From a virus, in the IMG/VR virus record IMGVR_UViG_3300024359_000388, positions 1 to 23,132 of that record: a stretch of 23,132 nt of DNA. One strand, written 5' to 3'. The translations under genes were made by a program, and so were the position numbers. The notes under the pieces are model-generated. The model was not told the DNA's origin. It was given only the letters and a program-made list of their open reading frames with translations, and searched no databases. Shown here piece by piece: positions 2,192 to 17,731 of the stretch. Each line of letters starts with the position of its first letter. Positions within the stretch are counted from its first letter, which is position 1.

Positions 2192-2836
2192 ATGAGTATT
2201 TTTTTAATAAATCCATATATATACCAAGTTACAGGTACTCCAGTAGAGCGAATAGCTAATATGGAAGCTATGTCATTTAATGGGACAGATCAATATGTGG
2301 ATGCTGGTTCTGCTTCTCTAAATTCTAATGAAGGTGCAGTTTTAGCTTGGATTAAAACAAGCTACACAAGTGATTTTCAAATAATTACTGCTATAGATAA
2401 CCAATTACAATGCAGAGTATTAACAACTGGTGAAATTAGATTAATATTATATCACGGTGGTTCTTTTACAACTCTTAATAGTACAGAAATAGTTAATGAC
2501 GGTGATTGGCATCACGTAGCATTTACTTATAATAGTTCAGGTATGAATATTTACATAGATGGCTCAAGTATTAGTAATTCGGTAGATGTTACTCCATTAA
2601 CTACAGCAACAGATAATTTTTTAATTGGAGCAAGAAGAATTTCTGGTACTCTAAGCAAATATTTTAATGGCTCTATTGACGAAGTAGCAATTTTTAATAA
2701 AGCATTATCAGCTAGTAAAATACAACAAATATACGACGCTACAGCAGTAGTAGATGGTGTACCACAAACAGCAAACTTATTTACAGGTGGACTGTCGTCC
2801 TCTCTTGTATATTGGAACCGAATGGGAGATAGTTAA
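2192..2836 (+). CDS. Single LamG-domain (lectin-like) virion protein
   Basis: This 214-residue protein is essentially one LamG / concanavalin A-like jelly-roll domain (about residues 24-185). The diagnostic pattern is visible: MSFNGTDQYVDAG at the start, VLAWIK, DGDWHHVAFTY, IYIDG, then the closing GSIDEVAIFNKALSASKIQ helix-turn. There is no signal peptide or membrane segment. The tail ends in QTAN...LVYWNRMGDS, and the 1416-residue gene downstream ends almost the same way (QTAD...VAWYRMGD), so the two are paralogues. LamG domains usually bind carbohydrate or protein ligands; here, beside a tail-fibre gene, host-surface glycan binding is the likely role (inference). Start ATG 2192 follows an A/T-rich leader with no Shine-Dalgarno sequence. 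Confidence 0.8.
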   Translation: MSIFLINPYIYQVTGTPVERIANMEAMSFNGTDQYVDAGSASLNSNEGAVLAWIKTSYTSDFQIITAIDNQLQCRVLTTGEIRLILYHGGSFTTLNSTEIVNDGDWHHVAFTYNSSGMNIYIDGSSISNSVDVTPLTTATDNFLIGARRISGTLSKYFNGSIDEVAIFNKALSASKIQQIYDATAVVDGVPQTANLFTGGLSSSLVYWNRMGDS

Positions 2837-2846
2837 ATTATAGAAT

Positions 2847-5800
2847 ATGTCAGCAAAGTATAAAAGTCCAAGTTTTTTATTACCTAACGAGTTAAATACC
2901 TCAGCTAACCCAGCTAATGATACCGGTGTCAATAGTTTGTATTCTATGGACTTTGATGGGGGTAGCGAAACCATATCTTTAAATACATCAACTATTTCTT
3001 TTGCAGATAGTTTTAGTATTTCAATGTGGATTAATCCTTCCTCATTATCTGGATTTCAAATGTTATTTAGTGGTTCTGGATATAGCGGAGGAAGTGCAAT
3101 TGGACATTATATATATAATAATACTGTTAGAACTTATGCTTCTGCAAGTGGGAGTGCCACACAAATTTTTCAATCTTCAGCTTTGTTAAGTACAGGTAGT
3201 TGGACACATATAGTAATACAAAGAGAAAAAGGAACTAATTGGGAAATGTGGATTGATGGTGTTTTAGAAGAAACTAACACTTCAGCAAGATTAACAGATG
3301 ATTTAACAAGTGCAAATAGCACTATTGCCAAACATTATAATAATAGTAGTTATAATTTTAACGGCAAAATAGACGAAGTAGCTATATTTAATAGAGCTTT
3401 AGATTCTACAGAGATAGCTGCACTATATGGAGGGACTAGTCCCAACATATATCCATCTAACATAATGGCTTCAAATTTAAATCCTATAGCTTATTATCCA
3501 TTAGGCGAGCAAGCACAAAACTCTGGGTATCCTTCAGCTACAGGAAACGAATGGCAATTTCCAAATGGTGTATTGCAAGATTATGTAATGGATTTTGATG
3601 GAAGTACGGATTATATAGATGCTGGTTCTTCAGCTGGCGTTGTTGGAACAGGAGTTAGAACTTTTTCAATGTGGTTAAAAACATCTAATACTGGCGGTCA
3701 AACTATACTTAGTACAAGAAATCAATCAACTGATGATGGGTGGGTTATACAAATAACAAGTACTACTGTACAGTTTTTTAATGAAAAAAATAATAAAATG
3801 ATATATACAACATTGTCACCAACTTTATCAAATGGAAGTTGGCATAATGTTGTAATTATAAGAGGTGGTTCAACAGCAACCAATGCTATTTATGTAGATG
3901 GAAATTCTATAAATTTGACAATAAACACCGAGAACGGAACTTCACCAGAAAGCAGCTCTAATCTTTCGATAGGTTCTACAATTACAAGTTCAAGTACTCC
4001 AGGATTTTTTAATGGTGAATTATCAAATTTAGCTATATGGAACTCTGACCAATCAACCAACATAGATAACATATATAACAACGGCTCTCCTCAAACAGCT
4101 TATACAGTTACTCCACAAAACTGGTGGAAACTAAATGCAGATTCTGTTTATACGCCTAGTGCACCTAATTACACAAAGGCTTTAGATTTTGTAGCTTCAG
4201 AGTCAGATTATATAGATGCTGGCTCTTCGATTGGTTTAATTGGAACAGGAGTTAGGACTTTTTCAGTATGGTTAAAAACATCCAGTAATGCAATACAAAC
4301 TATTTTAGGTACAAGAAACGTAAATACTGACGGCTGGGTTATTCAATGGAACGGCCCAAGTACTGGTGTATTATTTTATAGGCCTGGTGGAGTAAATAAT
4401 GGCATATATTCAACAACAGGAAATGCCGCAAATTTAACTGATGGTAATTGGCATCATCTTGTAATAGTTAGGGCTGGTACTGGTAATAATAAAATATATG
4501 TCGATGGAGTTTCTCAAACTTTAAATACGGCGTTTGGAGATGAAAACTTAACAGACCCACAAAGCTCTAAAAATTTATTAATAGGAGCTGGATATACTAC
4601 TGGAGGAGCTTTATTTAGATATTTTGATGGTGAAATATCTAATTTAGCTATATATAACTCAGCTTTATCTGCTTCACAAGTTTCAACTCTATTTAATTTT
4701 GGTACTCCAGAAACTAATATATCTTTTTCTCCTCAAGCTTGGTGGAAACTAGATGATCAAAACGCAATAACAGATTCTTCTGGTAATGGATATACAGGAA
4801 CTAATAATGGCGCTACAGACATCTCCTCTGGAGTGGCTGTCACCCCATCTTGGAAAATACCAAGTGCACTTACTATTCCAACTGTAAATTATACAACAGC
4901 TTTAGATTTTAATAGAAGTGAATATGACAACTTAAACACTACAGCTGTAACAGACTTCGACACAGGTGATGTTTCTTTTTCTGTTTGGGTTTTCAAAGAT
5001 GATAGCTCAACTTCTGGAATGGTGTTTAGTAATTCTTTCAATAGCGGCAAAGCAGGGATTACTGTAGCTATTAATGATCTAGAAAGAGTTTCAATAAAAA
5101 GAAGTACAAGAACACACGCGAAAGATAGTGGTTATAGAAATTTTGGTTTTACAACTAATAAATGGCATCAAATAGCCTTTACTTATAATGACTCAACACA
5201 TACTTTAAGAACGTTTTTAGATGGTCAATTTAAACAAGAATTTTCAGCTCCGTCAGCTACTCTTGTTGCTAGTACTGATGTTTGTGTTGGAGGTAGAGGA
5301 CCTGGCGCTACAAATGCAGCTCTTTTTTTTGATGGTAAAATAAGTAATTTAACAATATTTAATTCCAAGCTAGAAGATAGCGATATAAACACTTTATATA
5401 ACAGCGGGCAACCTCTTAGTGATTTATCTTCATTTACTACTCTTGCTACTTGGTGGAAATTAGATAATTTGACTACTGGAATACAAGATTCTGCTGGATC
5501 AATAAATTTAACTAATGATGGAGCTACAAAAGTAACTTCAGATGTATATGCAGAAAACATTCCAGTAAATGGAGTAAGTACAACTTTACCAAGTACAGCT
5601 TTACAACAAAGTGATTTACAATTTGATTCACCTTATAGTAACTATAGTTTAAGTTTTGATGGAACAGGAGATTATATAGATTGTGGTGCAATATCTCAAA
5701 TTCCTTCAGCAACAAATTTAACAGTTTCTTGCTGGTTAAATGCAAATATTATTACAACAAATCAAGTTGTTTGGGGTGATGACTCAAGTAGTTATATTTT

Positions 5801-7097
5801 TTCTTTTGAGTTTGCTGGAACAGCTAATAAAATGTATTTTGAATATGCTCCTGGATATGCTTCTATAGCTTTAAACTCTGTGATAACAGTAGGTACTTGG
5901 CATCACGTTGTAATGGTTTATGATGCAAGTGGTTCTGCTAATACTGATAAAATTAAATTTTATATAGATGGAGTTGATAAAAGTTCTTCTATGTCTTATT
6001 TTGGTAATATACCGTTATCATTAAGTCCAAGTATAGGTGATTTTTTAATAGGATATGGTACAGCTTATAGTAAGTATTTTAATGGTAACATAGATGAAAC
6101 TTCAATATTTAATTATAGTTTGTCAGAAGCTCAAGTATTAGAAATATATAATAATGGTAGACCAAAAGATTTAAGTACTTTCTCTGGAACTGCACCTATT
6201 TCTTGGTGGAGACTTGGTGAAAATGCTTATTTCGACAATAATTCATTTGTTGTTCCTAACTCAATTACTGGAGCGCCTAATGGTGTTGGCTCTGGTACTA
6301 TTACTACAATGATTTCAGCTGATGCACCTGGAACTTATGCAAATGGTATAGGAACAAATTTAGACATCTTAGATCGTGTAGGAGATGCACCTTTATCAAC
6401 CTCTAACTCTCAGAGTTATAATATGATTCCAAGTGATATTAGCCCTTATGTACCTGCATATGTAGGTAATCAAATAGCTAATAATTTTAGTATGACGTTT
6501 GATGGGGTAAATGATTATTTTACAACTGGTAATACTTTTTCTACTTTTGATGGATTAAGTAAGTTAAGTATTTCAATGTGGGTTAAATGGGATAATGTTT
6601 CTTCTTATAGAATTTTAGCATCAGTAACAAGAGACTCTAATGCAAATAATTTTGTTTGGATGCTATGTAATATAGATAACCATTTAAGATTTTTTGCAAG
6701 TACTACTTCAGAATACTGTTATAGTAACTATGTATTAACCGCAAACACTTGGACTCACGTTGCGGTAACCATGGATAAAACACAATCAACACAGGCGAAT
6801 AAGTGTAAAATATTTATCAATGGAGTTGACGAGACTTTAAATAATACAAACAATATAAATTCAAGTCCTTTACAAACTTCTAATTCACCATTATATATAG
6901 GAGAAAATCAAAACGGGAAATACAATCCAATGCTTGGAGAAATTGACGAAGTAGCAATATTCGATACAGCTTTAAATGCTGGACAAATTTATAATGATAT
7001 TTACCAACCGACTGCAACAGGAACTAACCAAACAGCAGATTTCGTAAATAATCCAAACTTACCTAATCCGGTAGCTTGGTACAGAATGGGAGATTAA
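2847..7097 (+). CDS. Six-LamG-domain giant receptor-binding-like protein
   Basis: This 1416-residue protein has six LamG-type domains, at roughly residues 32-195, 246-412, 444-615, 683-850, 934-1100 and 1215-1385. Each carries a (M/L)xFDG-like opening strand, FS(V/M/I)xW, a Trp-His pair in the third quarter (NWHHLVIV, TWHHVVMVY, TWTHVAVT), an (Y/F)I(D/N)G turn and a closing G(K/E/N)I(D/S)(E/N) x(A/S/T)IFN segment. Linkers carry WWKL(D/N) or WWRLGE and YNNGxP signatures. Domains 2 and 3 are a visible DNA duplication. The N-terminus (MSAKYKSPSFLLPNELN) resembles that of the next gene (MSTKFLSPGWRMPRNAN), suggesting a common virion-attachment peptide. No catalytic motif was recognised. Probable function is multivalent adhesion to host surface glycans; the domain call is firm, the ligand unknown. 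Confidence 0.82.
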   Translation: MSAKYKSPSFLLPNELNTSANPANDTGVNSLYSMDFDGGSETISLNTSTISFADSFSISMWINPSSLSGFQMLFSGSGYSGGSAIGHYIYNNTVRTYASASGSATQIFQSSALLSTGSWTHIVIQREKGTNWEMWIDGVLEETNTSARLTDDLTSANSTIAKHYNNSSYNFNGKIDEVAIFNRALDSTEIAALYGGTSPNIYPSNIMASNLNPIAYYPLGEQAQNSGYPSATGNEWQFPNGVLQDYVMDFDGSTDYIDAGSSAGVVGTGVRTFSMWLKTSNTGGQTILSTRNQSTDDGWVIQITSTTVQFFNEKNNKMIYTTLSPTLSNGSWHNVVIIRGGSTATNAIYVDGNSINLTINTENGTSPESSSNLSIGSTITSSSTPGFFNGELSNLAIWNSDQSTNIDNIYNNGSPQTAYTVTPQNWWKLNADSVYTPSAPNYTKALDFVASESDYIDAGSSIGLIGTGVRTFSVWLKTSSNAIQTILGTRNVNTDGWVIQWNGPSTGVLFYRPGGVNNGIYSTTGNAANLTDGNWHHLVIVRAGTGNNKIYVDGVSQTLNTAFGDENLTDPQSSKNLLIGAGYTTGGALFRYFDGEISNLAIYNSALSASQVSTLFNFGTPETNISFSPQAWWKLDDQNAITDSSGNGYTGTNNGATDISSGVAVTPSWKIPSALTIPTVNYTTALDFNRSEYDNLNTTAVTDFDTGDVSFSVWVFKDDSSTSGMVFSNSFNSGKAGITVAINDLERVSIKRSTRTHAKDSGYRNFGFTTNKWHQIAFTYNDSTHTLRTFLDGQFKQEFSAPSATLVASTDVCVGGRGPGATNAALFFDGKISNLTIFNSKLEDSDINTLYNSGQPLSDLSSFTTLATWWKLDNLTTGIQDSAGSINLTNDGATKVTSDVYAENIPVNGVSTTLPSTALQQSDLQFDSPYSNYSLSFDGTGDYIDCGAISQIPSATNLTVSCWLNANIITTNQVVWGDDSSSYIFSFEFAGTANKMYFEYAPGYASIALNSVITVGTWHHVVMVYDASGSANTDKIKFYIDGVDKSSSMSYFGNIPLSLSPSIGDFLIGYGTAYSKYFNGNIDETSIFNYSLSEAQVLEIYNNGRPKDLSTFSGTAPISWWRLGENAYFDNNSFVVPNSITGAPNGVGSGTITTMISADAPGTYANGIGTNLDILDRVGDAPLSTSNSQSYNMIPSDISPYVPAYVGNQIANNFSMTFDGVNDYFTTGNTFSTFDGLSKLSISMWVKWDNVSSYRILASVTRDSNANNFVWMLCNIDNHLRFFASTTSEYCYSNYVLTANTWTHVAVTMDKTQSTQANKCKIFINGVDETLNNTNNINSSPLQTSNSPLYIGENQNGKYNPMLGEIDEVAIFDTALNAGQIYNDIYQPTATGTNQTADFVNNPNLPNPVAWYRMGD
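3609..4283 (+). repeat. Nucleotide-level duplication between LamG domains 2 and 3
   Basis: Bases 3609-3686 and 4206-4283 align without gaps, with 12 differences in 78 positions. The offset is 597 bases (199 codons), so the frame is kept. Both encode DYIDAGSS..G..GTGVRTFS plus (M/V)WLKTS. Similarity continues more weakly along the two domains. This is a relatively recent in-frame duplication of a whole lectin module; the other four domains in the gene have diverged much further. Confidence 0.8.
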
Positions 7098-7109
7098 TAA
7101 AATAAAAAT

Positions 7110-10100
7110 ATGAGTACAAAATTTTTAAGTCCAGGCTGGCGAATGCCAAGAAATGCTAATCAGAGTAAATTTAGTAACTATTCTATGGACTTTGATTCTG
7201 CAAGTAGTGATAAAATAACAGGAACAGGTGCTTTAATATCTGGAAATGAACCAAGAAGTTTTTCTTTATGGTACAAAACAACTTTGTCTACTCCTATGAT
7301 TCCATTTTCTTTAGGTAATCCAGATTCAACTTTAGGTGGTACAAATACACAATTTGCATATTGTATTAATAGGCAAAACTCAACAACTCGAGCTGCAATA
7401 TTTGGAAGAGGCAACGATGTTTCACCAATAACAGTTCCAGCAACTAATGACGGAAATTGGCATCATTTAGTAGTGACTTACGACCAAGTTTCTTTAAAAG
7501 TTTATATTGATGGAAGTTTAGAAGCGACTCCAAGTTTACCTTCTCTTAATTATTCAACTAATAATGGTTTTAGTATTGGCGGGTGGAGTGTAAATGATAG
7601 AAAATTTGATGGACAAATAGACGGAGTAGCAATTTTCAATTACCCTCTTTCTTCAAGCCAAATAACAACTCTTTGGGGCGGTGGAACATCCGTTTCAAAC
7701 CCTATGGCTTTACCAAGTCCACCTATCGCTTATTATCCTTTAGGTAAATCTGCTTGGAACGGAAATTATTTAGCTGAAAACAATGCAATTGGAGATTATG
7801 TTTTTGATTTTAATGGTAGTAGTAAAATACGTTGTGGAACAGCTAGCACCTACAATGAGTTTTGTTTATCTGCTTGGATAAAAAAAGATTCTACTGCTCC
7901 AAATTATGCTGGTATTTTTGGAACAAGAAATTCAACTGCTGTACAGTTTCCTTATTTGCTTTCTCTTGATAATACGGGAAAAGTTAGATTGATAGCAGGC
8001 GGAAATACAAGTGTATTGAGTGATAGTGCAATAAACAATGATACTTGGTACCACGTTGTTGGTTTAGGAGATGGCACTAACTTAAAACTGTACATTAACG
8101 GACAACTACAAACAGCAACAGCAACTTATACTACACAATCTGCAAATAATGATTTAGTGATTGGAGGTCAATTTGATACTGACTCATCTTCTTTATGGGT
8201 TGGAGAAATTTCAAATGCTCAAATATGGGATACATCATTATCATCTACAGAAATAGAAACTCTTTATAATAATGGCTCACCAATAAGAACTTTATCTAAT
8301 ATACCTCAGAACTCTAATATTCAAGGATGGTGGAAATTAGATGCTTCTGATACTTATGATTCTTCTACAGGAAATTGGACGATTGAAGACCACGCTGGTT
8401 CTAACGATGGCACAAGCTCAGGAATGTCTCAAGCAAACCTTGTTCAAAGTGACTTACAAACAGTTGCGCCTTATAGTAAATATGCTATGAATTTTCTTGG
8501 AACAGATAATGATTATATAGATTGTGGTAATTCTGCATTAACAGCTATTTCAGGGGGCTCTACAACTTTAACCACCACTATGACTATTTCAACTTGGTTC
8601 AAGCTTGGTTCATCTTCAGCAAGTAAAGGTTTAGTAGGTTTCGGTGACTTAAACAACAACTATGGAGGTTTAGCTATTAGACACGAATCAGGTGTATTTA
8701 GCTTTTTAAGGAGTAATCAGCATATGGTTTCTGGAGGTTATAGCTTTTCAGATACAACAAATTGGCATAATATGGTTTTTGTTTATGATCCAAATAGTGC
8801 AAGTAATTGCAAAGTTTATATTGATTCTGTAAATGTAAATTTAAGTTTTGTAAACGTTGGGGATGTTAGTCTTGAAAATAAAAAGCTAACAATTGGAGCT
8901 TATTATGGACTTTCTGACACTTTCACAGGTGAGCTTTCAAATTTTTCAACTTGGAATGCTGCTTTAACATCTGCACAAGTATCAGAAATTTACAATGAAG
9001 GCCTTCCTAGTAATTTAAATTCACATTCTGCATATTCTAACCTTGTTTCTTGGTGGCAGTTAGGTGAAAACAGTAGTTTTACAGGCGGTTGGATATTTGC
9101 AGACGAAAAGGGAAGTAATAATGGAGATGGTCAAAATATGACTGAAGCAAAACTAACAAATGGCGTAGGCACAACAGCTAATGGAGTATCTAGCGGAATG
9201 TCAGAAGGTAATTTAGTAGGTGATGCACCATATAGTACGGCAAATGCAATATCAAGTGGGATGAGTGTTGTGTCAAGAGTTACAGATGTAGCTCCAACGC
9301 CTCCTCTATTATTAGATGATTATGGAACAGATGCCTTATTAGCTGTATCTATGAGAAAGCTTAGAACAAATTATACTGGTTTTTCTATGAGAATACAAAG
9401 ACGAGGCACAGCTGGTTCAACAGGAACCGCAGATGACCAAGCGGATTTACATTTTGATAGTAATGATTACACATCTTTAGATAGTCCAATAACAGCTGTC
9501 ACATCTGGTGTTTTATCTACTACATTAGGAGAGTTTTGTGCGGCTCCTGGGTATAGTAATCCTGATTCAATGCCATCTGCTGATACTGTAGAAGTTGTTA
9601 AATTTTATAATCAAACACAGAACACAGCAATAACTCAATTTTCTGGTGGATCATTCCAGCTTAATGAACTTGTTACAAATGGTGTTTTAGAAACTATAAC
9701 AAGAGGCGGTAGTACGTTTGTAGCATTAAATTGTGCTTATAGAGAAAATTATGCAGTTGTTCCAGGCACAAGTGTTATGGGGGGAACGCCTTTGAGTACA
9801 TTTACAGTTACTAATGTAAAAGACCCTGCTGGTGGTTTTACTTTTGAAGGTGTTTCTATTACTCCTACAGCTTATAATATTCCAGCAAGTGAAATTTTAT
9901 ATGATGATACTACAGACCAATTAGAATTAAATAACAGTGTAAATTCAAATCAAATTTTAAGCTCAACAAATACATTTGCAACAGATACACCATATTTATT
10001 CAGTGTTCTAATACAAGATGCACCAGATACAACTGCATATTATGTAAACAATACTTTACAAGCATCAAGAACAAATTTTACTCATCCAAACAAATCAAGT

Positions 10101-10238
10101 ATAAGTGGTATTAAATATGACCAAAACAACAAGGCGGCAGGCCCTGAATTTATGGAAGCTATTTATTACAATGGAAGTAAAGAAACAGACCTTAGTAGTA
10201 TAAATCAAAATATAATAAATTATTACAATTTAACATAA
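7110..10238 (+). CDS. Three LamG domains plus arabinofuranosidase-like C-terminal region
   Basis: This 1042-residue protein has LamG-type domains at about residues 24-190, 230-388 and 458-630, with the same signatures as the preceding gene (YSMDFD, NWHHLVVTYD, VYIDGS, GQIDGVAIFN). The linkers contain a decapeptide-like repeat, SSGMSQANLV, SSGMSEGNLV and SSGMSVVSRV. From residue ~733 the architecture changes: LLAVSMRKLRTNYTGFSMRI followed by VEVVKFYNQTQN resembles the 'YSLRKL...YTG...RVRR...VVxWYDQSGNG' pattern of arabinofuranosidase B-type folds found at the ends of many phage tail proteins. The usual WYDQSGNG core is degenerate here (FYNQTQNT), so I infer a binding fold rather than a working hydrolase. 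It is the last gene of the receptor-binding block; a 106-base gap follows. Confidence 0.78.
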   Translation: MSTKFLSPGWRMPRNANQSKFSNYSMDFDSASSDKITGTGALISGNEPRSFSLWYKTTLSTPMIPFSLGNPDSTLGGTNTQFAYCINRQNSTTRAAIFGRGNDVSPITVPATNDGNWHHLVVTYDQVSLKVYIDGSLEATPSLPSLNYSTNNGFSIGGWSVNDRKFDGQIDGVAIFNYPLSSSQITTLWGGGTSVSNPMALPSPPIAYYPLGKSAWNGNYLAENNAIGDYVFDFNGSSKIRCGTASTYNEFCLSAWIKKDSTAPNYAGIFGTRNSTAVQFPYLLSLDNTGKVRLIAGGNTSVLSDSAINNDTWYHVVGLGDGTNLKLYINGQLQTATATYTTQSANNDLVIGGQFDTDSSSLWVGEISNAQIWDTSLSSTEIETLYNNGSPIRTLSNIPQNSNIQGWWKLDASDTYDSSTGNWTIEDHAGSNDGTSSGMSQANLVQSDLQTVAPYSKYAMNFLGTDNDYIDCGNSALTAISGGSTTLTTTMTISTWFKLGSSSASKGLVGFGDLNNNYGGLAIRHESGVFSFLRSNQHMVSGGYSFSDTTNWHNMVFVYDPNSASNCKVYIDSVNVNLSFVNVGDVSLENKKLTIGAYYGLSDTFTGELSNFSTWNAALTSAQVSEIYNEGLPSNLNSHSAYSNLVSWWQLGENSSFTGGWIFADEKGSNNGDGQNMTEAKLTNGVGTTANGVSSGMSEGNLVGDAPYSTANAISSGMSVVSRVTDVAPTPPLLLDDYGTDALLAVSMRKLRTNYTGFSMRIQRRGTAGSTGTADDQADLHFDSNDYTSLDSPITAVTSGVLSTTLGEFCAAPGYSNPDSMPSADTVEVVKFYNQTQNTAITQFSGGSFQLNELVTNGVLETITRGGSTFVALNCAYRENYAVVPGTSVMGGTPLSTFTVTNVKDPAGGFTFEGVSITPTAYNIPASEILYDDTTDQLELNNSVNSNQILSSTNTFATDTPYLFSVLIQDAPDTTAYYVNNTLQASRTNFTHPNKSSISGIKYDQNNKAAGPEFMEAIYYNGSKETDLSSINQNIINYYNLT

Positions 10239-10344
10239 TTTGTTTTATTAATAAGAATTTTATAGGAGTATTAACACTTCGTAAAAAAATATTAAAACAA
10301 GTAAATATATAAATAACAAGTAATTAACAAATAACAATTAAACA
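10239..10344. other. 106-base AT-rich gap between fibre block and packaging block
   Basis: This is the longest gene-free stretch of the window. It contains a short perfect palindrome, TTATTAATAA (10246-10255), and an isolated AGGAG (about 10264) that is not followed by a usable start codon at proper spacing. I see no convincing terminator hairpin and no clear promoter hexamers. Its position between two functional blocks makes it the likeliest place for a late promoter, but the sequence does not prove one. Confidence 0.35.
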
Positions 10345-10596
10345 ATGGCAACAACTTATGTAGTAATTAACTTATCTGATACAAACGCTGTTTTGTTCAG
10401 CCAAGTAAATCAGTCTTCTGCTCAAACAATGAGAAGAAACGTAGCAAATACTGAAGGTGTTTTGTCTTTTCAGGTAGAGCCTAGCTTTATTACAAACGGT
10501 TCGTTGACGCCTGTTGGGACTTATACTCATGAAGAAATATTAGTCTTATTAGCTACTCCAGAATGGACACCTGCTGAACCAGGACCAGGAGAATAA
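10345..10596 (+). CDS. Small protein of unknown function (83 aa)
   Basis: I do not recognise the family. The product starts MATTYVVINLSDTNAVLF, continues with a predicted beta/alpha mix, and ends in an acidic, Pro-rich tail (TPAEPGPGE). It has no signal peptide, Cys cluster or membrane helix. The ATG at 10345 follows an A-rich leader without Shine-Dalgarno, like its neighbours. It is separated by 27 bases from the coiled-coil gene downstream and is the first gene after the fibre block. Coding is supported by an in-frame start, composition like the neighbours and absence of any competing frame. A small virion or assembly factor is possible. Confidence 0.6.
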   Translation: MATTYVVINLSDTNAVLFSQVNQSSAQTMRRNVANTEGVLSFQVEPSFITNGSLTPVGTYTHEEILVLLATPEWTPAEPGPGE

Positions 10597-10623
10597 ATAA
10601 AACAAACAATTAAATCTAATCAA

Positions 10624-10872
10624 ATGAAAATCAAAGAAGAAGAATTAAAATTAATTCAAGAACAACAAAAAAAGCTTAATGAATTAGTCCATAACATTGG
10701 TTTATTAGAAAGCCAAAAGCATGGATTATTGCATGAAATAGCTGGTGTTAATAAAGAGATCGAAGACTATAAAGAAATATTAGAAGCTGAATACGGCGCT
10801 ATTAATATTGATCTTGAAGATGGCTCTTATACTAAGATAGAAGAAAATGTCGAAAGTAATAAGGAAGATTAG
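10624..10872 (+). CDS. Small coiled-coil protein (82 aa)
   Basis: Residues 1-55 are dominated by Lys, Glu, Gln and Leu with heptad-like hydrophobic spacing (ELKLIQEQQKKLNELVHNIG, then LLESQKHGLLHEIAGVNKEI), so a long coiled coil is expected. A more ordered acidic segment follows (YGAINIDLEDGSYTKIEE). Small proteins of this appearance are common in marine phage genomes, but I know of no established function. The 3' end overlaps the next gene by 26 bases in another frame, suggesting translational coupling. Start ATG 10624 has no Shine-Dalgarno. Its place in the packaging block is compatible with an oligomeric assembly factor; that is inference. Confidence 0.7.
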   Translation: MKIKEEELKLIQEQQKKLNELVHNIGLLESQKHGLLHEIAGVNKEIEDYKEILEAEYGAINIDLEDGSYTKIEENVESNKED

Positions 10873-11074
10873 TATAGGTTCTGATTACAAGAACGATGCA
10901 ATGCATTATTCAACTGGTCAGGAAGTATACGGTGGACATACTATTAGCGATATTCTTTTTGAAGACCAAGACCAATCATATAATATTTTTATAACTAAAA
11001 ATAATGAAGTCTTACCTTGGAAAAAGTTTAATGCTAATATGGCTATATCTGTAGAGTATGATCTTAAGTACTAG
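10847..11074 (+). CDS. Small conserved-looking protein of unknown function (75 aa)
   Basis: The product begins MSKVIRKISIGSDYKNDAMH, followed by YSTGQEVYGGHTISDI, and ends in a beta-rich segment. I recall similar short proteins in marine phages but cannot name the family. The start ATG at 10847 lies inside the upstream coiled-coil gene (26-base overlap), and the stop TAG at 11072-11074 shares its G with the GTG start of the GroES-like gene. That tight double overlap strongly suggests co-translation with both neighbours. It has no signal peptide, membrane segment or metal motif. A partner or regulator of the GroES-like protein is conceivable but rests only on linkage. Confidence 0.65.
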   Translation: MSKVIRKISIGSDYKNDAMHYSTGQEVYGGHTISDILFEDQDQSYNIFITKNNEVLPWKKFNANMAISVEYDLKY

Positions 11075-11667
11075 TGCAAAGCTTGTATTATTTCATTGTC
11101 AAACCATTAAATGATAGGTATGACAATACAAGAACAGTTGCTGGTACTGATCTTATTATCAACAGCGGCATTGAAGATCATAGATTTATTAGTAAAAAAG
11201 CTGTAGTAGTTTCGACTCCTGCAGCTTATACTACTAAAATAAATATAGGAGATGAATTATATATTCACCATAATATATTTAGAAGATGGTATGATCAAAA
11301 AGGCAAAGAACGAAATAGTTCAACTCATTTCAAAGATGATCTTTATTTTGTTGCGCCTGAGCAAATCTATATGTATAATTTAAAAACACATTTAGACTAT
11401 TGCTTCGTAAAACCACTAAAAAACCAAAGTGTCTTAGAGAACAGAAAAGAACAACCTAATATTGGAATAGTAAAATATTCTAACAAGTCCTTAGAAGCTC
11501 TAGAAATCACACCTGGAACACTTATTACGTTTACACCTAACTCTGAGTTTGAGTTTATTATAGAAGGTGAACGACTTTATTGTATGAAATCTAATGATAT
11601 AGCTTTAACTCATGAATACCAAGGAAACGAAGAAGAAAATAATCCAAGCTGGGCAAAAGGCAGTTGA
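11074..11667 (+). CDS. Putative tandem GroES-like co-chaperonin (197 aa)
   Basis: The protein looks like two GroES-fold repeats. Domain 1 (residues ~5-101) starts F7-I-V-K-P-L-N-D-R15, matching the RPLHDR strand of GroES. It then has AGTDLIINSG (23-32) where GroES has its mobile loop AGGIVLTG, with hydrophobic triplet L27-I28-I29, and later INIGDELYIHH (56-66), matching the VKVGDIVIF strand. Domain 2 (~107-182) repeats this: F111-V-K-P-L, GIVKYS, then EITPGTLITF (144-153) and GERLYCMKSNDIAL, close to the EEVLIMSESDILAI end of GroES; its loop is short. GroES caps GroEL during folding, and T4 gp31 does so for the T4 capsid protein. A similar role for late proteins is inferred from position upstream of terminase and capsid genes. 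The GTG start overlaps the previous stop; no better start preserves strand one. Confidence 0.62.
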   Translation: MQSLYYFIVKPLNDRYDNTRTVAGTDLIINSGIEDHRFISKKAVVVSTPAAYTTKINIGDELYIHHNIFRRWYDQKGKERNSSTHFKDDLYFVAPEQIYMYNLKTHLDYCFVKPLKNQSVLENRKEQPNIGIVKYSNKSLEALEITPGTLITFTPNSEFEFIIEGERLYCMKSNDIALTHEYQGNEEENNPSWAKGS

Positions 11668-11887
11668 GGAACTTATTAAGGTAGCAAAAGAAAAGATTGT
11701 TGACTCAGACGATGATGTAAGCGCTGACAGATTAAAAAACGCTGCCGCAACTAAAAAACTAGCTATATTTGATGCTTTTGAAATACTTAATCGTATTCAA
11801 CAAGAGGAGGATATATTAAATGAAAAACCTAAAGAAGTAAAAGAACAAAAAACTTTTAAAGGTTTTGCAGAAGGGAGAAGCAAGTGA
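11612..11887 (+). CDS. Small helical protein, candidate small terminase subunit
   Basis: This 91-residue, almost wholly helical, Lys/Glu-rich protein contains KKIIQAGQKAVEELIKVAKE, then DDDVSADRLKNAAATKKLA and IFDAFEILNRIQQEE. It lies directly upstream of the large terminase gene and overlaps it by four bases (GTGA, 11884-11887), the usual place for the small subunit, which recognises phage DNA and feeds it to the motor. I see no classical helix-turn-helix with certainty, so the call rests mainly on position, size and helical character. The 5' end overlaps the GroES-like gene by 56 bases in another frame. An alternative is a general assembly adaptor. Confidence 0.55.
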   Translation: MNTKETKKKIIQAGQKAVEELIKVAKEKIVDSDDDVSADRLKNAAATKKLAIFDAFEILNRIQQEEDILNEKPKEVKEQKTFKGFAEGRSK

Positions 11888-14106
11888 GCTACGAGCAAAC
11901 TCTTTGGAAAGAAATTAAGGACGTTGTAAATCCTAAGATATTAGCTAAAAACAATAGATTTAAAAAATGGGATTATGGTTATAATTCTGATTATGATTTT
12001 ATAGTAATAAGTAAAACAGGTAAAATTGGACAAATCATTGAAATACAGAATCTCAGGATTGCTTTACCAGCAGCAAATGAACCGTTTAAACGAAGTAAAG
12101 AAAAAGCGGAGCAGTATTGGGAAAAGCAAGAATACCCAAAAGAATTAAGTAATATTAAAAGTAGATTTGACTGGGAGGAATATCCAGCTGAATTTAAAGA
12201 GAAATGGTACGATTATATTGACAATGAATTTACAAGAAGAGAACAAGGGTATTGGTTTTACAATAATGGTATTAATACTTACATTACTGGCACTCATTAC
12301 ATGTACTTGCAATGGTCAAAGATTGACATTGGAGCACCAGACTTTAGAGAAGCAAACAGACTCTTCTTTATATTTTGGGAAGCATGTAAAGCAGATGCAA
12401 GATGTTACGGCATGTGCTACCTCAAAAACAGACGATCTGGATTCTCTTTTATGTCAAGCGCAGAGCTTGTCAACCAAGCTACAATATCTTCCGATGCTAG
12501 ATTTGGAATACTTTCCAAGTCTGGAGCAGATGCCAAAAAAATGTTCACAGATAAAGTTGTACCCATATCAGTTAACTACCCGTTCTTTTTTAAACCCATT
12601 CAAGATGGTATGGACCGGCCGAAAACTGAATTGGCATATCGTGTTCCAGCATCGAAACTTACTAGAAGAAAGCTTGAATCGAATGAACAGCTTAGAGAAC
12701 TAGACGGACTTGATACAACTATTGACTGGAAAAACACAGGTGATAACTCTTATGATGGTGAAAAGCTAAAGCTATTAGCTCATGATGAAAGTGGTAAATG
12801 GGAGAGGCCTGATAATATATTAAACAACTGGAGAGTTACAAAAACTACATTAAGGCTAGGATCAAGAATCGTAGGTAAATGTATGATGGGCTCAACTTCA
12901 AATGCTTTAGACAAAGGTGGAGACAACTTCAAAAAATTATACTACGCTTCAGACGTTACTAAAAGAAATAGAAACGGACAAACATCTTCTGGGCTCTATA
13001 GCTTGTTCATTCCTATGGAATGGAACTACGAAGGATTCATCGATACTAATGGACTACCTGTCTTCGTTGGAGGCAAAACTCCAATCAAAGGAGTTGATGG
13101 CTATGAAATTACAACGGGAGTTATCGAGCACTGGGAAAACGAAGTTGACGGTTTAAGAGAAGATCCTGATGGTTTAAATGAATACTATAGACAGTTTCCA
13201 AGAACTGAAGCACATGCTTTCAGAGATGAAACAAAAGATAGTTTATTTAACTTAACTAAAATATACGAACAAATTGATTTTAATGCTGAGCTTAATAATT
13301 CAGCAGCTGTTACAACAGGTAGCTTTCAATGGGAAAATGGTATTAAAGATTCAAGGGTTATATTTAGCCCAAATAGATCAGGTAGGTTCCAGATAAGTTG
13401 GGTACCACCTAAAAGTCTTCAAAATCGAGTGATACTAAAGAATGGAGTTAAATACCCTGGAAATGAACACACTGGAGCATTTGGTTTAGATAGTTATGAT
13501 ATATCAGGAACAGTTGATGGCAAGGGTTCTAACGGAGCTTTACACGGACTTACAAAGTTTTCAATGGAAGACGTACCGCCAAATCATTTCTTTTTAGAAT
13601 ATATATCAAGGCCACAAACAGCTGAGATATTCTTTGAAGATGTATTAATGGCTATGGTATTTTATGGCATGCCTATACTTGCTGAAAATAACAAACCTAG
13701 GTTTTTATACTATTTGAAGCGAAGAGGTTACAGAGGTTATTCTATGAATCGTCCTGATAAAATATGGAATAAACTATCAACCACTGAAAAAGAAATAGGT
13801 GGAATACCTAACACAAGTGAAGATATTAAGCAAGCACATGCTGCTGCTATAGAATCTTATATAGAAAACTATGTAGGATTAAAAGAAGATGGTTACGGTG
13901 ATATGTACCATCAAAAGACATTAGAAGATTGGTCTAAGTTCAATATTAACAATAGAACAAAGCACGATGCTTCGATAAGCTCAGGTTTAGCTATTATGGC
14001 TTGTAATAAAAATAGGTATACACCTGTTAACAAAAGACAAACAAAAACTGTAGCTTTAGGTATTAAAAGATATGATAACACGGGTTATAATTCAAAAATA
14101 AAATAG
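11884..14106 (+). CDS. terL: Terminase large subunit (packaging ATPase/nuclease)
   Basis: This 740-residue protein is the DNA-packaging motor and headful/end-cutting nuclease docked on the portal. The N-terminal ATPase domain has a deviant Walker A, K181-N-R-R-S-G-F-S188. It lacks the usual GK(S/T) but aligns with the lambda gpA variant KSARVGYSK, in which the lysine sits at the front. Walker B is LKLLAHDE with D301-E302, followed by a coupling motif at GSTSN (~330). The C-terminal RNase H-like nuclease shows FGLD536-SYD539 and later KHD695-A-S-I, plausible metal-binding aspartates, with an acidic FLEY...FFEDVLMAM segment between. The start is GTG 11884, overlapping the small upstream gene by GTGA; the portal ATG follows the stop directly. 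Length is at the long end for large terminases and fits the crAss-like type. Confidence 0.9.
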   Translation: MSYEQTLWKEIKDVVNPKILAKNNRFKKWDYGYNSDYDFIVISKTGKIGQIIEIQNLRIALPAANEPFKRSKEKAEQYWEKQEYPKELSNIKSRFDWEEYPAEFKEKWYDYIDNEFTRREQGYWFYNNGINTYITGTHYMYLQWSKIDIGAPDFREANRLFFIFWEACKADARCYGMCYLKNRRSGFSFMSSAELVNQATISSDARFGILSKSGADAKKMFTDKVVPISVNYPFFFKPIQDGMDRPKTELAYRVPASKLTRRKLESNEQLRELDGLDTTIDWKNTGDNSYDGEKLKLLAHDESGKWERPDNILNNWRVTKTTLRLGSRIVGKCMMGSTSNALDKGGDNFKKLYYASDVTKRNRNGQTSSGLYSLFIPMEWNYEGFIDTNGLPVFVGGKTPIKGVDGYEITTGVIEHWENEVDGLREDPDGLNEYYRQFPRTEAHAFRDETKDSLFNLTKIYEQIDFNAELNNSAAVTTGSFQWENGIKDSRVIFSPNRSGRFQISWVPPKSLQNRVILKNGVKYPGNEHTGAFGLDSYDISGTVDGKGSNGALHGLTKFSMEDVPPNHFFLEYISRPQTAEIFFEDVLMAMVFYGMPILAENNKPRFLYYLKRRGYRGYSMNRPDKIWNKLSTTEKEIGGIPNTSEDIKQAHAAAIESYIENYVGLKEDGYGDMYHQKTLEDWSKFNINNRTKHDASISSGLAIMACNKNRYTPVNKRQTKTVALGIKRYDNTGYNSKIK

Positions 14107-16518
14107 ATGATAAATACTAATTACAATAGTTCTTTTCCGGATCAGGTTGTGCCAGATGTTGAAAAAGCTTCTTATGAGTATGGTTTACAAGTAGGTAGAG
14201 CCATAGAGTCTGAGTGGTTTAGAAACGACAGAGGTTGGTACGATAGATTTAATACGAACTATAATAATTTCCATAAACTAAGACTTTATGCTAGAGGAGA
14301 ACAATCTATTCAAAAATACAAAGACGAATTATCTATTAATGGCGACTTATCTTATTTAAACTTAGACTGGAAGCCCGTACCAGTTATACCTAAGTTTGTA
14401 GATATTGTTGTAAATGGTATGTCTCAAAGATCTTACGATATTAAAGCTTATGCTCAAGATCCTGAGTCTATAATGAAAAGAACTGCTTATGCTGAAGCTC
14501 TACAGAGAGACATGATGCAAAAAGATCTTATCAACCAAATACAACAAATGACAGGTCTTGATGTTTCTAAATCACAAGGTAAAGGTTTAGAGATGGAAAG
14601 CGAAGAAGATCTACAGCTTCATATGCAAATGGATTATAAAGAATCTATTGAAGTAGCTGAAGAAGAAGTTATTAATAATATATTAGCTAAAAACAAATAT
14701 GATTTAACTAGAAGAAGATTAAATCAAGATTTAACTATATTAGGTATTGCAGCTACTAAAACCTGTTTTAACAGATCAGAAGGTGTTACAGTTGATTATG
14801 TAGATCCAGCAAGTTTAGTTTATTCATATACTGAAGATCCTAATTTTGAAGATTTATATTATGTAGGTGAAGTAAAACCTATTAGTTTAGCAGAACTTAA
14901 AAAGCAGTTTCCTGAATTAACACCTAGTGAACTAGAAGAAATACAAAAGTATCCAGGTAATCAAAACTATACTAGGAACTGGAGTGGTCGTTATGATGAT
15001 GATACAGTGCAAGTATTATACTTTGAATACAAAACTTTTACTAACCAAGTATTTAAAATAAAGCAAACTGCATCAGGACTTGAAAAAGCATTAGAAAAAC
15101 AAGATACATTTATAGAAGCACCAGATGGTGACAACTTTAAAAAGGCATATAGATCAATTGAAGTATTATACTCAGGAGCTAAAATACTAGGGCACGAAAA
15201 AATGTTAAGATGGCAAATGGCTGAAAATATGACAAGACCATATGCTGACACTGTTAAAGTTAATATGAACTATAACATCGTAGCTCCTAGATTGTATAAA
15301 GGCCGTATAGAATCAATTGTAAGCAGAATAACTGGTTTTGCTGATATGATACAGTTAACTCATCTAAAGCTACAACAGGTGATGTCTAGAATAGTGCCTG
15401 ATGGTGTTTATATGGATATAGATGGTTTAGCAGAGGTAGATTTAGGTAATGGTACTAATTATAATCCAGCTGAGGCATTAAATATGTATTTCCAGACTGG
15501 TAGTATAGTTGGTAGATCAATGACGCAAGATGGTGGTATGAATCCAGGCAAAGTTCCAATACAAGAACTTGCTACATCAAATGGTATGGGTAAAATACAA
15601 TCATTGATACAAACTTATGAGTATTATCTTAAAATGATTAGAGACGTGACCGGACTTAATGAAGCTAGAGATGGTACGCTACCAGACAAGCAATCATTAG
15701 TTGGTTTACAAAAACTTGCTGCCGCTAATTCAAATGTAGCTACAAGACATGTGTTACAAGCTAGTTTATATTTAACTCTTAGAACTTGTGAAAACATATC
15801 ATTAAGAGTAGCTGATGCTTTAATGTTTCCAATGACTAAACAGTCTTTAATGTCTAGTATATCTAGATATAATGTAGGAACATTAGAAGAGCTATCTAGT
15901 TTAAATATGCATGACTTTGGTATATTCTTAGAATTAGAGCCAGATGAAGAGCAAAAACAAATACTAGAACAAAATATTCAAATAGCTTTACAAGCTGGAC
16001 AAATAGATCTTGAAGATGCTATTGACATTAGAGAAGTTGCTAATTTAAAGTTAGCTAATCAAATGTTGAAAAAGCGTAGAAAAGATAAAGCAGCTAGAGA
16101 CCAACAAGCACAACAAGCTAATATGCAAGCGCAAGCACAGTCTAATGCACAGTTAGCAGAACAAACAGCTATGGCAGAAGCTCAGAAACAACAAATACTA
16201 ACTGAGCAAAAAATGCAACTTGAAAAAGCTAAATCTGATTTTGAAGTACAAAAGATGGAGAGAGAAGCACAAATTAAACAACAGTTAATGGAACTAGAGT
16301 TTAATTACAATATGCAACTTACTCAAGCTCAAGGTCAAAGTAAAAAGTCTCAAGAAGAATTTAAAGAAGATCGTAAAGACGAACGAACTAAAATACAAGC
16401 AACGCAACAATCTGAGTTAATAGATCAAAGAAAAAATGATTTATTACCGAAGAACTTTGAATCCGCAGGTAATGATACTATGGGTGGATTTGGCTTAGAG
16501 CAATTTGCTCCTAAGTAA
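14107..16518 (+). CDS. Portal protein with Gln-rich coiled-coil tail
   Basis: This 803-residue protein would form the dodecameric ring at the unique vertex through which DNA enters. The ATG abuts the terminase stop codon. The N-terminal wing region includes NLDW (85-88) and the following KPVPVIPKFVDIVVNGM, and an acidic helical segment lies at ~150-200. A stem-region motif occurs near residues 512-550: IRDVTGLNEARDGT, then QSLVGLQKLAAANSN, the helix pattern seen in portals of this kind. From ~655 onward the chain becomes a Lys/Arg- then Gln/Ala/Glu-rich coiled coil of some 110 residues (DQQAQQANMQAQAQ), ending in a short Gly-rich tail. Such extended C-terminal helices in P22 form the portal barrel; whether that is so here is inference. 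No Shine-Dalgarno precedes it, so translation is probably coupled to terL. Confidence 0.85.
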   Translation: MINTNYNSSFPDQVVPDVEKASYEYGLQVGRAIESEWFRNDRGWYDRFNTNYNNFHKLRLYARGEQSIQKYKDELSINGDLSYLNLDWKPVPVIPKFVDIVVNGMSQRSYDIKAYAQDPESIMKRTAYAEALQRDMMQKDLINQIQQMTGLDVSKSQGKGLEMESEEDLQLHMQMDYKESIEVAEEEVINNILAKNKYDLTRRRLNQDLTILGIAATKTCFNRSEGVTVDYVDPASLVYSYTEDPNFEDLYYVGEVKPISLAELKKQFPELTPSELEEIQKYPGNQNYTRNWSGRYDDDTVQVLYFEYKTFTNQVFKIKQTASGLEKALEKQDTFIEAPDGDNFKKAYRSIEVLYSGAKILGHEKMLRWQMAENMTRPYADTVKVNMNYNIVAPRLYKGRIESIVSRITGFADMIQLTHLKLQQVMSRIVPDGVYMDIDGLAEVDLGNGTNYNPAEALNMYFQTGSIVGRSMTQDGGMNPGKVPIQELATSNGMGKIQSLIQTYEYYLKMIRDVTGLNEARDGTLPDKQSLVGLQKLAAANSNVATRHVLQASLYLTLRTCENISLRVADALMFPMTKQSLMSSISRYNVGTLEELSSLNMHDFGIFLELEPDEEQKQILEQNIQIALQAGQIDLEDAIDIREVANLKLANQMLKKRRKDKAARDQQAQQANMQAQAQSNAQLAEQTAMAEAQKQQILTEQKMQLEKAKSDFEVQKMEREAQIKQQLMELEFNYNMQLTQAQGQSKKSQEEFKEDRKDERTKIQATQQSELIDQRKNDLLPKNFESAGNDTMGGFGLEQFAPK

Positions 16519-16544
16519 TTTTATATTAACTATTATATTATATT
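16519..16544 (+). promoter_or_regulatory. AT-rich leader with (ATATT)n, copy 1
   Basis: The spacer between portal and scaffold-like genes is entirely A/T apart from one C. It ends in TATTATATTATATTATG (16531-16547), including the start codon. The same 17 bases precede the gene at 19307. There is no Shine-Dalgarno. It may be an unstructured translation-initiation leader of the Bacteroidota kind or an AT-rich promoter; the sequence cannot decide. Confidence 0.4.
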
Positions 16545-17717
16545 ATGTCAGAAAAAGTAAAAGAGGAAGGTTCTTTTAAAATAAAAAAGAAACCAGGTAG
16601 ACCTAAAAAACTTACCAACAAAGGAGAAACAATAAAAGTAGATTTATCTAAAAAAGAAGAAAAAGTAGAAGATGCCGTTCAAGAGCAAACAACAGATGAA
16701 GTACTTGTTCGCGACGAACCCAAAGCTAGCGAAGAAGTTTCTAAAGAAAACATCGAAGAAACAACTGAAAAACCTACCGAAGAAAGCAAAGAAGAAAAAG
16801 TAATTCCAATACAAGAGATTACTGAAGAGCCAAAGGTAGAAGAAAAGAAAGAGCCAGTTATGGAAACTGCTCCAGAGCCTGCTAAACCAGAAGTTAACTT
16901 ACCTGAAAATGTAGAAAAGTTAGTTAAGTTTATGGAAGAAACAGGTGGTACAGTTGAAGACTACGTTAGATTAAATGCTGACTATAGCAACGTAGATGAC
17001 AATACTTTAATTAGAGAATACTACAAACAGACTAAACCACACTTAGATATGGAAGAGGTTAACTTCTTATTAGAAGATAACTTTTCATTTGACGAAGACG
17101 TGGATGAAGAGCGAGATATAAAGAAAAAGAAACTTGCCTTCAAAGAAGAAATTGCTAAAGCCCGTAAATTTTTAGAGGACACTAAGAGTAAATACTACGA
17201 CGAAATCAAGTTGAGACCCGGCGTAACTCAAGACCAACAAAAGGCTATGGACTTTTTCAATAGATACAACGAAGAACAGAAAATGGTTCAAGATCAACAC
17301 AAGAGGTTCCAAAGTAACACTAAAAACTTCTTTAACCAAGAATTCAAAGGTTTTGACTTCAATATTGGTGAAAAGAAATTTAGATATGGACTTTCGGATA
17401 CTGATGGTGTTGCTAACACCCAATCTGATCTAACTAATTTTGTTGGGAAGTTCCTAAATGAAAAAGGTGAAGTAAAAGATTATGCTGGTTACCACAAAGC
17501 CATTTATGCTGCTGAAAACGCTGATACAATAGCTAATCATTTCTATGAGCAAGGCAAAGCCGATGCTGTAAAAGATATGATGGCTAAATCCAAAAACGTA
17601 AGTAATGAACCAAGGACTACGTCTACAGGTGATGTGTTTGTCAATGGATTAAAAGTAAAAGCAATTAGTGGTGTAGATAGTTCTAAGTTAAAATTAAGAG
17701 TAAATAAAAATAAATAA
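16545..17717 (+). CDS. Putative scaffolding / head-assembly protein
   Basis: The 390-residue product sits between portal and major capsid genes, the usual place of a scaffold. Residues 1-~125 are low-complexity Lys/Glu/Pro/Val-rich and presumably disordered; residues 14-22 read KKKPGRPKK, an AT-hook-like GRP core flanked by lysines. Residues ~125-300 are strongly helical and acidic, with a DEDVDEERDIKKKK switch of charge and KARKFLEDTKSKYYDEIK, as expected for an elongated oligomer. The C-terminus is basic (NGLKVKAISG, SSKLKLRVNKNK), like the capsid-binding ends of other scaffolds. There is no visible protease triad, signal peptide or membrane helix. Function is inferred from position, charge and helical character rather than from a family motif. 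ATG 16545 lies after the (ATATT)n leader. Confidence 0.65.
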   Translation: MSEKVKEEGSFKIKKKPGRPKKLTNKGETIKVDLSKKEEKVEDAVQEQTTDEVLVRDEPKASEEVSKENIEETTEKPTEESKEEKVIPIQEITEEPKVEEKKEPVMETAPEPAKPEVNLPENVEKLVKFMEETGGTVEDYVRLNADYSNVDDNTLIREYYKQTKPHLDMEEVNFLLEDNFSFDEDVDEERDIKKKKLAFKEEIAKARKFLEDTKSKYYDEIKLRPGVTQDQQKAMDFFNRYNEEQKMVQDQHKRFQSNTKNFFNQEFKGFDFNIGEKKFRYGLSDTDGVANTQSDLTNFVGKFLNEKGEVKDYAGYHKAIYAAENADTIANHFYEQGKADAVKDMMAKSKNVSNEPRTTSTGDVFVNGLKVKAISGVDSSKLKLRVNKNK

Positions 17718-17731
17718 TTAAAATTTAGAAA

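Follow-up and report, generated by a model that had tools for sequence, protein, structure and literature searches.

Three adjacent genes in the 23,132-base virus record IMGVR_UViG_3300024359_000388 (the window, analyzed at its full length), from a marine bacterial virus, encode ten LamG domains, and we conclude that these genes are very likely a fixed chassis displaying LamG cores that are replaced whole by recombination. Sequence comparisons show that the chassis comprises leaders, linkers, and gene ends, each specific to its position, which together display the ten domains. The replaceable block occupies about 140 codons in the middle of each domain: it opens just past the first strand (SMDF) and closes at the codon that precedes D/S-E/N in the last strand (F-N/D-G-x-I/L). 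Whole blocks would be swapped, mostly with related phages as donors and occasionally entering another slot, and gain or loss of whole units would be less frequent than block replacement.

The genes lie on the plus strand at 2192..2836 (gene 1, 214 amino acids), 2847..7097 (gene 2, 1416 amino acids), and 7110..10238 (gene 3, 1042 amino acids). Pfam assigns them one, six, and three Laminin_G_3 (PF13385) domains, respectively (E = 3.8e-31, 6e-112, and 3.7e-56; 108.7, 371, and 189.9 bits against a curated cut-off of 27.6), and a hidden Markov model (HMM) made from the ten domains of the window finds the identical ten again. Both searches thus bear out the count and arrangement given in a preliminary description of this DNA. 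We compared the genes with relatives retrieved from IMG/VR with terminase and array genes as queries, all of them metagenome contigs. Slots in 16 contigs were labeled according to gene and order; the labels are our own and depend on the HMM hits. Loci duplicating the same contigs were dropped (L084, L194, L094, L190, L095, L200, L196, L197, and L199), as was L001.

Linkers are locked to their position in the array. Across the 16 phages, the best match of a linker was the same position in another phage in 109 of 114 cases (another position in 4, the own genome in 1), whereas for cores it was the same position in 18 of 125 cases, another position in 97, and the own genome in 10 (Fisher p ~1e-41 for same-position matches, linkers versus cores). 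Random expectation is 9% for the same position and 6% for the own genome. Cores entered this comparison if HMM coverage ran from column ≤25 to ≥120, and the linkers exclude those shorter than 20 amino acids, gene 1 linkers, and, in truncated gene 2 fragments, the N-terminal linkers. We used trimmed cores because BLAST with untrimmed domains looked more positional owing to the conserved flanks. At identities near 30%, best matches are noisy, so we also compared all pairs. Mean core identity was 0.281 at the same position (689 pairs), 0.276 at different positions (6581 pairs), and 0.277 within a genome (480 pairs); the corresponding values for linkers were 0.666 (586 pairs), 0.329 (5453 pairs), and 0.326 (402 pairs). 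On trees, position labels changed 13 times among linkers (84.3 ± 2.5 when shuffled) and 88 times among cores (92.8 ± 2.8 when shuffled), while phage labels changed 103 times among cores (98.7 ± 2.4 when shuffled). The preliminary description had named one outcome that would speak against local expansion, namely that each domain be nearest to its same-position orthologue; we found this for the linkers only and not for the cores.

Divergence at silent sites separates the two components further. In an alignment of four gene 2 proteins, the conserved blocks (~400 residues comprising leader, linkers, and end) are 78–90% identical in amino acids and 78–87% identical at four-fold sites, compared with 27–32% and 44–55% for the LamG cores (~920 residues). 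The amino acid contrast is partly built in because the blocks were chosen by conservation, and the silent-site contrast is affected less. When HMM position defined the blocks instead, four-fold identity between the window and its close relative L116 was 0.82 for linkers, 0.38 for cores, and 0.86 for terminase. Thus, silent sites are saturated in the cores of this pair and not in its linkers or terminase, which argues that the cores were replaced rather than mutated. At the DNA level, L116 aligns to the window at 92% DNA identity over 10268–18002, and the array aligns only as islands coinciding with linkers. The same comparison with L112 gave 0.82 for linkers, 0.42 for cores, and 0.36 for terminase; its linkers are far closer to the window than its terminase is, which suggests that the linker scaffold itself has passed laterally between phage lineages. 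The longest conserved linker, between gene 2 domains 5 and 6 (6180..6488), lies inside a stretch that is 87–89% identical in DNA to both L112 and L116, and the flanking cores are unalignable. In the window, GC content and third-position GC are similar for cores and linkers, which is consistent with donors that are phages of the same kind.

The borders of the block are visible at codon resolution. In 114 domains with fuller coverage, the excess of same-position over cross-position identity per codon was large at columns 1–3, at most 0.09 across columns 4–144, and abruptly large from column 145 (0.69 at the same position versus 0.34). The 3' border therefore falls between F-N/D-G-x-I/L and D/S-E/N of the last strand, where cross-position nucleotide identity is 0.45–0.67 over five codons; the 5' border is less sharp. 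In the LamG fold, the two terminal strands, which here belong to the chassis, lie side by side.

Related cores also occur in different slots. L115 gene 1 and L198 gene 2 domain 6 share a core at 92% amino acid identity, L113 gene 2 domain 2 and the third domain of L087 gene 3 share one at 75%, and L114 gene 2 domain 5 and L192 gene 3 domain 1 share one at 69%, each with differing flanks. In such pairs, DNA similarity starts between 7 nucleotides before and 39 nucleotides after the domain start (the 5' border of the L115–L198 pair is uninformative, as the L198 contig begins there) and stops 51–75 nucleotides before the HMM domain end. The core type of gene 3 domain 1 in the window (7182..7706) occupies four slots in seven contigs at 60–97% identity with unrelated flanks: the first slot of gene 3 in L085, the second in L235, the last in L231 (the same contig as L088) and L233, and gene 1 in L232 and L234, not counting the two weak loci L236 and L237. 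Mosaicism in phage receptor-binding proteins is recognized by a recent, high-identity fragment common to proteins with unrelated flanks, and these cores display it.

Single replacements are seen among relatives with two LamG domains. L127 and L137 are 93% and 91% identical on either side of a replaced core 1, and the match restarts exactly before F-G-G-L-I-D-E-V; between L127 and L128/L130 it is core 2 that was replaced, and L127 and L130 have core 1 in common. Over the whole set, turnover is nearly complete. Among 91 pairs of the 14 phages with a usable terminase (that of L111 is cut, and none was found in L114), 4 of 528 same-position cores were retained at ≥45% identity; the 9 pairs with terminases at least 90% identical in nucleotides retained 1 of 45, and the window and L116 (terminase 92.8%) retained 0 of 10. 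Sharing at ≥45% was more frequent within a slot (4 of 689 pairs) than between slots (7 of 6581; Fisher p 0.015), although some same-slot cases may be inherited. Once in place, cores are maintained: the ratio of nonsynonymous to synonymous substitution (dN/dS) in eight core pairs (seven shared cores and one local pair) is 0.10–0.54. These values do not bear out the strong selection proposed in the preliminary description, insofar as it would act by amino acid change.

Other histories could in principle produce such an array. The preliminary description favored repeated tandem duplication in the phage's own lineage, and gene 2 domains 2 and 3 (3585..4106 and 4179..4727), the sole clear local pair, are indeed ~51–53% identical, genes 2 and 3 have related leaders, and domain number differs among relatives. 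However, the own genome supplied the best match for only 10 of 125 cores, own-genome core identity equals that between phages (0.277), and the tree shows no grouping of cores by phage. These three results largely rule out local duplication for the cores and leave it very improbable as the origin of the ten domains; duplication may account for an old origin of the units, not for the present cores. The idea of a multivalent adhesin set survives insofar as a multi-lectin array is present, and local expansion as its origin does not. We find it highly improbable that the cores descended vertically and diversified very fast by point mutation under diversifying selection while the linkers were constrained. 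One continuous frame joins cores and linkers, and an amino acid identity of 27–32% could reflect saturation, but this account conflicts with the L116 pair, in which silent sites are saturated in cores and not in linkers or terminase, the loss of positional signal within the block, the presence of the same core types in different slots, and a dN/dS of 0.10–0.42 in the seven shared core pairs. The identity gap among cores is also contrary to gradual divergence: 7738 of 7750 pairs fall below 45%, and 3 are at ≥90%.

Fusion of cores from co-occurring phages at conserved linkers by short-read assemblers is quite improbable. It gains from the fact that the data are metagenome contigs throughout, with linkers ~80–98% identical and exact runs of up to 137 nucleotides shared within the array. 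Against it, shared cores have diverged in DNA (~75–94% identity) rather than being identical, the four-fold identity of L116 linkers resembles that of its terminase, frames remain open across all ten units, and matching linkers would not be expected to yield moves between slots. Action of a diversity-generating retroelement on the lectin domains is extremely improbable: error-prone reverse transcriptases are known to diversify phage lectin-type domains (as reported in the part of PMC7824862 considered here), but a reverse transcriptase (PF00078) was detected in 0 of 21 records, many of them fragments, in a search that recovered its positive controls, and the changes are whole blocks with insertions and deletions rather than scattered substitutions in a constant domain. 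We also considered and set aside a bacterial source, as the gene 2 alignment had no relative in genome_contigs and the core of gene 3 domain 1 had only partial matches (35–44%) in two metagenome-assembled genomes.

Replacement of whole cores by recombination thus remains the explanation we favor, and several points weigh against it. Besides the noise of core best matches and the chance of chimeric contigs, the core tree has little resolution (14 of 122 inner branches starred), and some contigs were picked via chassis-like patterns, which biases the sample toward a conserved chassis. In addition, searches covering three families identified a recombinase in few records: an ERF-type protein in 2 of 7, RecT in 0 of 7, and an integrase in 1 of 7. 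Two observations bear on a site-specific recombination cassette, which would have a recombinase gene and a fixed site: the single integrase among the seven records and the low cross-position nucleotide identity at the 3' edge. Mechanistically, we postulate that same-slot exchange would occur between co-infecting phages via linker DNA that is 80–98% identical, with an ERF-type annealing protein possibly helping in some phages, and that the rarer moves between slots would proceed via short or no homology. In a stronger version, which seems unlikely to us, the chassis would have evolved for dedicated exchange, with a specific recombination activity swapping cores in frame, at a high rate and at fixed codon borders, in any of about a dozen slots. 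The cores would come from a shared pool of about a thousand or more types, a figure given by a naive birthday estimate from 4 of 7270 between-phage pairs at ≥70% identity.

The chassis also accounts for the related gene starts and ends noted in the preliminary description, because these are parts of conserved chassis linkers. Gene boundaries recur in one type of motif, with an end in ...W-x-R-M-G-D followed by a leader with S-P-x-W/F-x-x-P-N or a variant. The leaders of gene 2 (MSAKYKSPSFLLP) and gene 3 (MSTKFLSPGWRMP) are visibly related, but the start of gene 1 differs; likewise, gene 1 ends in YWNRMGDS and gene 2 in AWYRMGD, but the end of gene 3 is unlike these and carries an additional C-terminal module. 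Expression of the three genes as a fusion by read-through or frameshift was set aside: genes 2 and 3 are in the same frame, but a TAA ends gene 1 and two TAA codons end gene 2, and relatives again carry separate genes.

The remaining domains, all on the plus strand, lie at ~2267–2746 in gene 1, at 2943..3458 (domain 1, HMM residues 33–204), 4899..5429 (domain 4), 5646..6179 (domain 5), and 6489..7034 (domain 6) in gene 2, and at 7800..8297 (domain 2) and 8484..9026 (domain 3, the last) in gene 3. Besides the window, the complete set of three genes is present in L112, L113, L115, L116, and L118, where gene 2 has six LamG domains (gene 3 is cut in L118), and in L119 and L121, where it has four; L111 and L114 have two of the three. 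Where the start of gene 2 is present, it carries six LamG domains in 8 of 10 contigs and four in 2. In the window's clade, the number of LamG domains in gene 3 is three in the window and L112, four in twelve contigs, and five in L115. Most relatives have one further unit preceding the last domain of gene 3. A gene 3 unit present in L118 (L084), L087, and L113 (L095) is missing in the window and L112 (L094). Looser relatives have genes with one, two, or three LamG domains.

The array proteins are predicted to be adhesin-like, glycan-binding lectins. A model of gene 2 domains 5–6 shows domain blocks mostly at a predicted local distance difference test (pLDDT) score of 65–88 (64.6 overall) with a low-confidence linker, and it resembles laminin LG4-5, neurexin, pentraxins, and a sialidase carbohydrate-binding domain. 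The modeled domains thus have the features of a LamG/pentraxin-type beta sandwich. Because of the domain type, and because the array lies upstream of the genes for terminase, portal, and the capsid region (PHROG 6681, 6547, and 13704), we predict a role in receptor binding or adhesion and a location on the virion. There, the cores would bind surface or polysaccharide glycans of Flavobacteriaceae, and a swap would alter what the particle sticks to.

The C-terminal module of gene 3 (9300..10235, plus strand; ~310 amino acids) is not LamG and is missing from gene 3 of most relatives. It is 90% identical in one other contig (L086/L229) and 63–64% identical in L230, a 122 kb phage contig that carries it in a separate gene. 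The module had no Pfam hit, no convincing relative among solved structures, and no confident fold (pLDDT 30). Assignment as a GH54 arabinofuranosidase B was rejected, since the window module has no PF09206 match; an L230 open reading frame 28% identical to it scores 17.6 bits against a cut-off of 25. At L230:1703-4927, three nearby genes have a related leader followed by an arabinofuranosidase-like sequence, a LamG domain, or a relative of the module, as if another phage exchanged parts in the same way, here at the level of genes.

The preliminary description placed the array beside a separate tail fibre. We could not substantiate this: the neighboring open reading frame at 2–2182, which is cut at the window start, lacks a Pfam hit and shows just a weak match to a PHROG of unknown function. 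It matches the neighboring gene of L116 mainly over ~110 residues and may be mosaic too. Between gene 3 and the next gene lies an A/T-rich intergenic tandem repeat (10285–10342; period 18, 3.2 copies).

The window terminase is 62.6% identical to that of a podovirus record from Manatee Spring and ~44% identical to those of Flavobacterium elemo phages. Homologous terminase, portal, and capsid-region genes occur in order, as in Elemovirus-like podoviruses, and Elemovirus and other Flavobacteriaceae podoviruses have the same terminase–portal–structural gene order. Because 86 of the 87 phage records matched by terminase bear the name of Flavobacterium, Cellulophaga, Tenacibaculum, or Maribacter, the hosts are probably Flavobacteriaceae. 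Of note, the nearest named relatives have annotated GroEL/GroES genes near their structural genes (L082:2943-4833 and L083:6037-7850).

Domain shuffling in phage receptor-binding proteins is already established. High-identity fragments in otherwise different proteins have been read as ongoing shuffling (Smug et al. 2023, PMC10684548), and as in the window, a conserved part is kept and the receptor-binding part exchanged. The examples in the sections of that paper considered here involve exchange of terminal domains or domain gain and loss (section 14); the window array differs from them in its internal cores, ten or more slots, three genes, position-locked linkers, and codon-sharp border. The terms LamG, laminin, lectin, and concanavalin have no occurrence in its main text. 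Laminin G3/concanavalin-fold domains, the same family as in the window, are tied to tail fibres and virion components of jumbo phages (PMC7824862), and an array, linker, or exchange pattern is not described in the part of that source considered here. Rad52-like recombinases of Escherichia coli phages carry out relaxed homologous recombination that tolerates divergence (De Paepe et al. 2014, PMC3945230). The exchange presented in the relevant part of that paper is driven by homology, and an ERF-type protein is present in 2 of 7 relatives here, in which exchange is read from sequences. In a phage collection, genes 2 and 3 had only weak LamG matches, in Synechococcus phages, and the core of gene 3 domain 1 and the long linker had no match. 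No multi-slot array of this type is described in the open-licence literature we searched, which was judged mostly by titles and mostly excluded subscription papers. Internal exchange in many slots, a codon-sharp border, and near-complete turnover therefore appear to be new here.

In this array, one and the same protein combines a scaffold common to the phages with recognition cores that are exchanged freely, and the border between them reveals natural in-frame swap points for LamG domains. Because turnover is nearly complete even between phages whose terminases are at least 90% identical in DNA, the contributions of mutation and part exchange to adhesion become countable in marine data. If the exchange is dedicated, it would give these phages a combinatorial lectin surface serving a purpose like that of retroelement diversification, without a reverse transcriptase.

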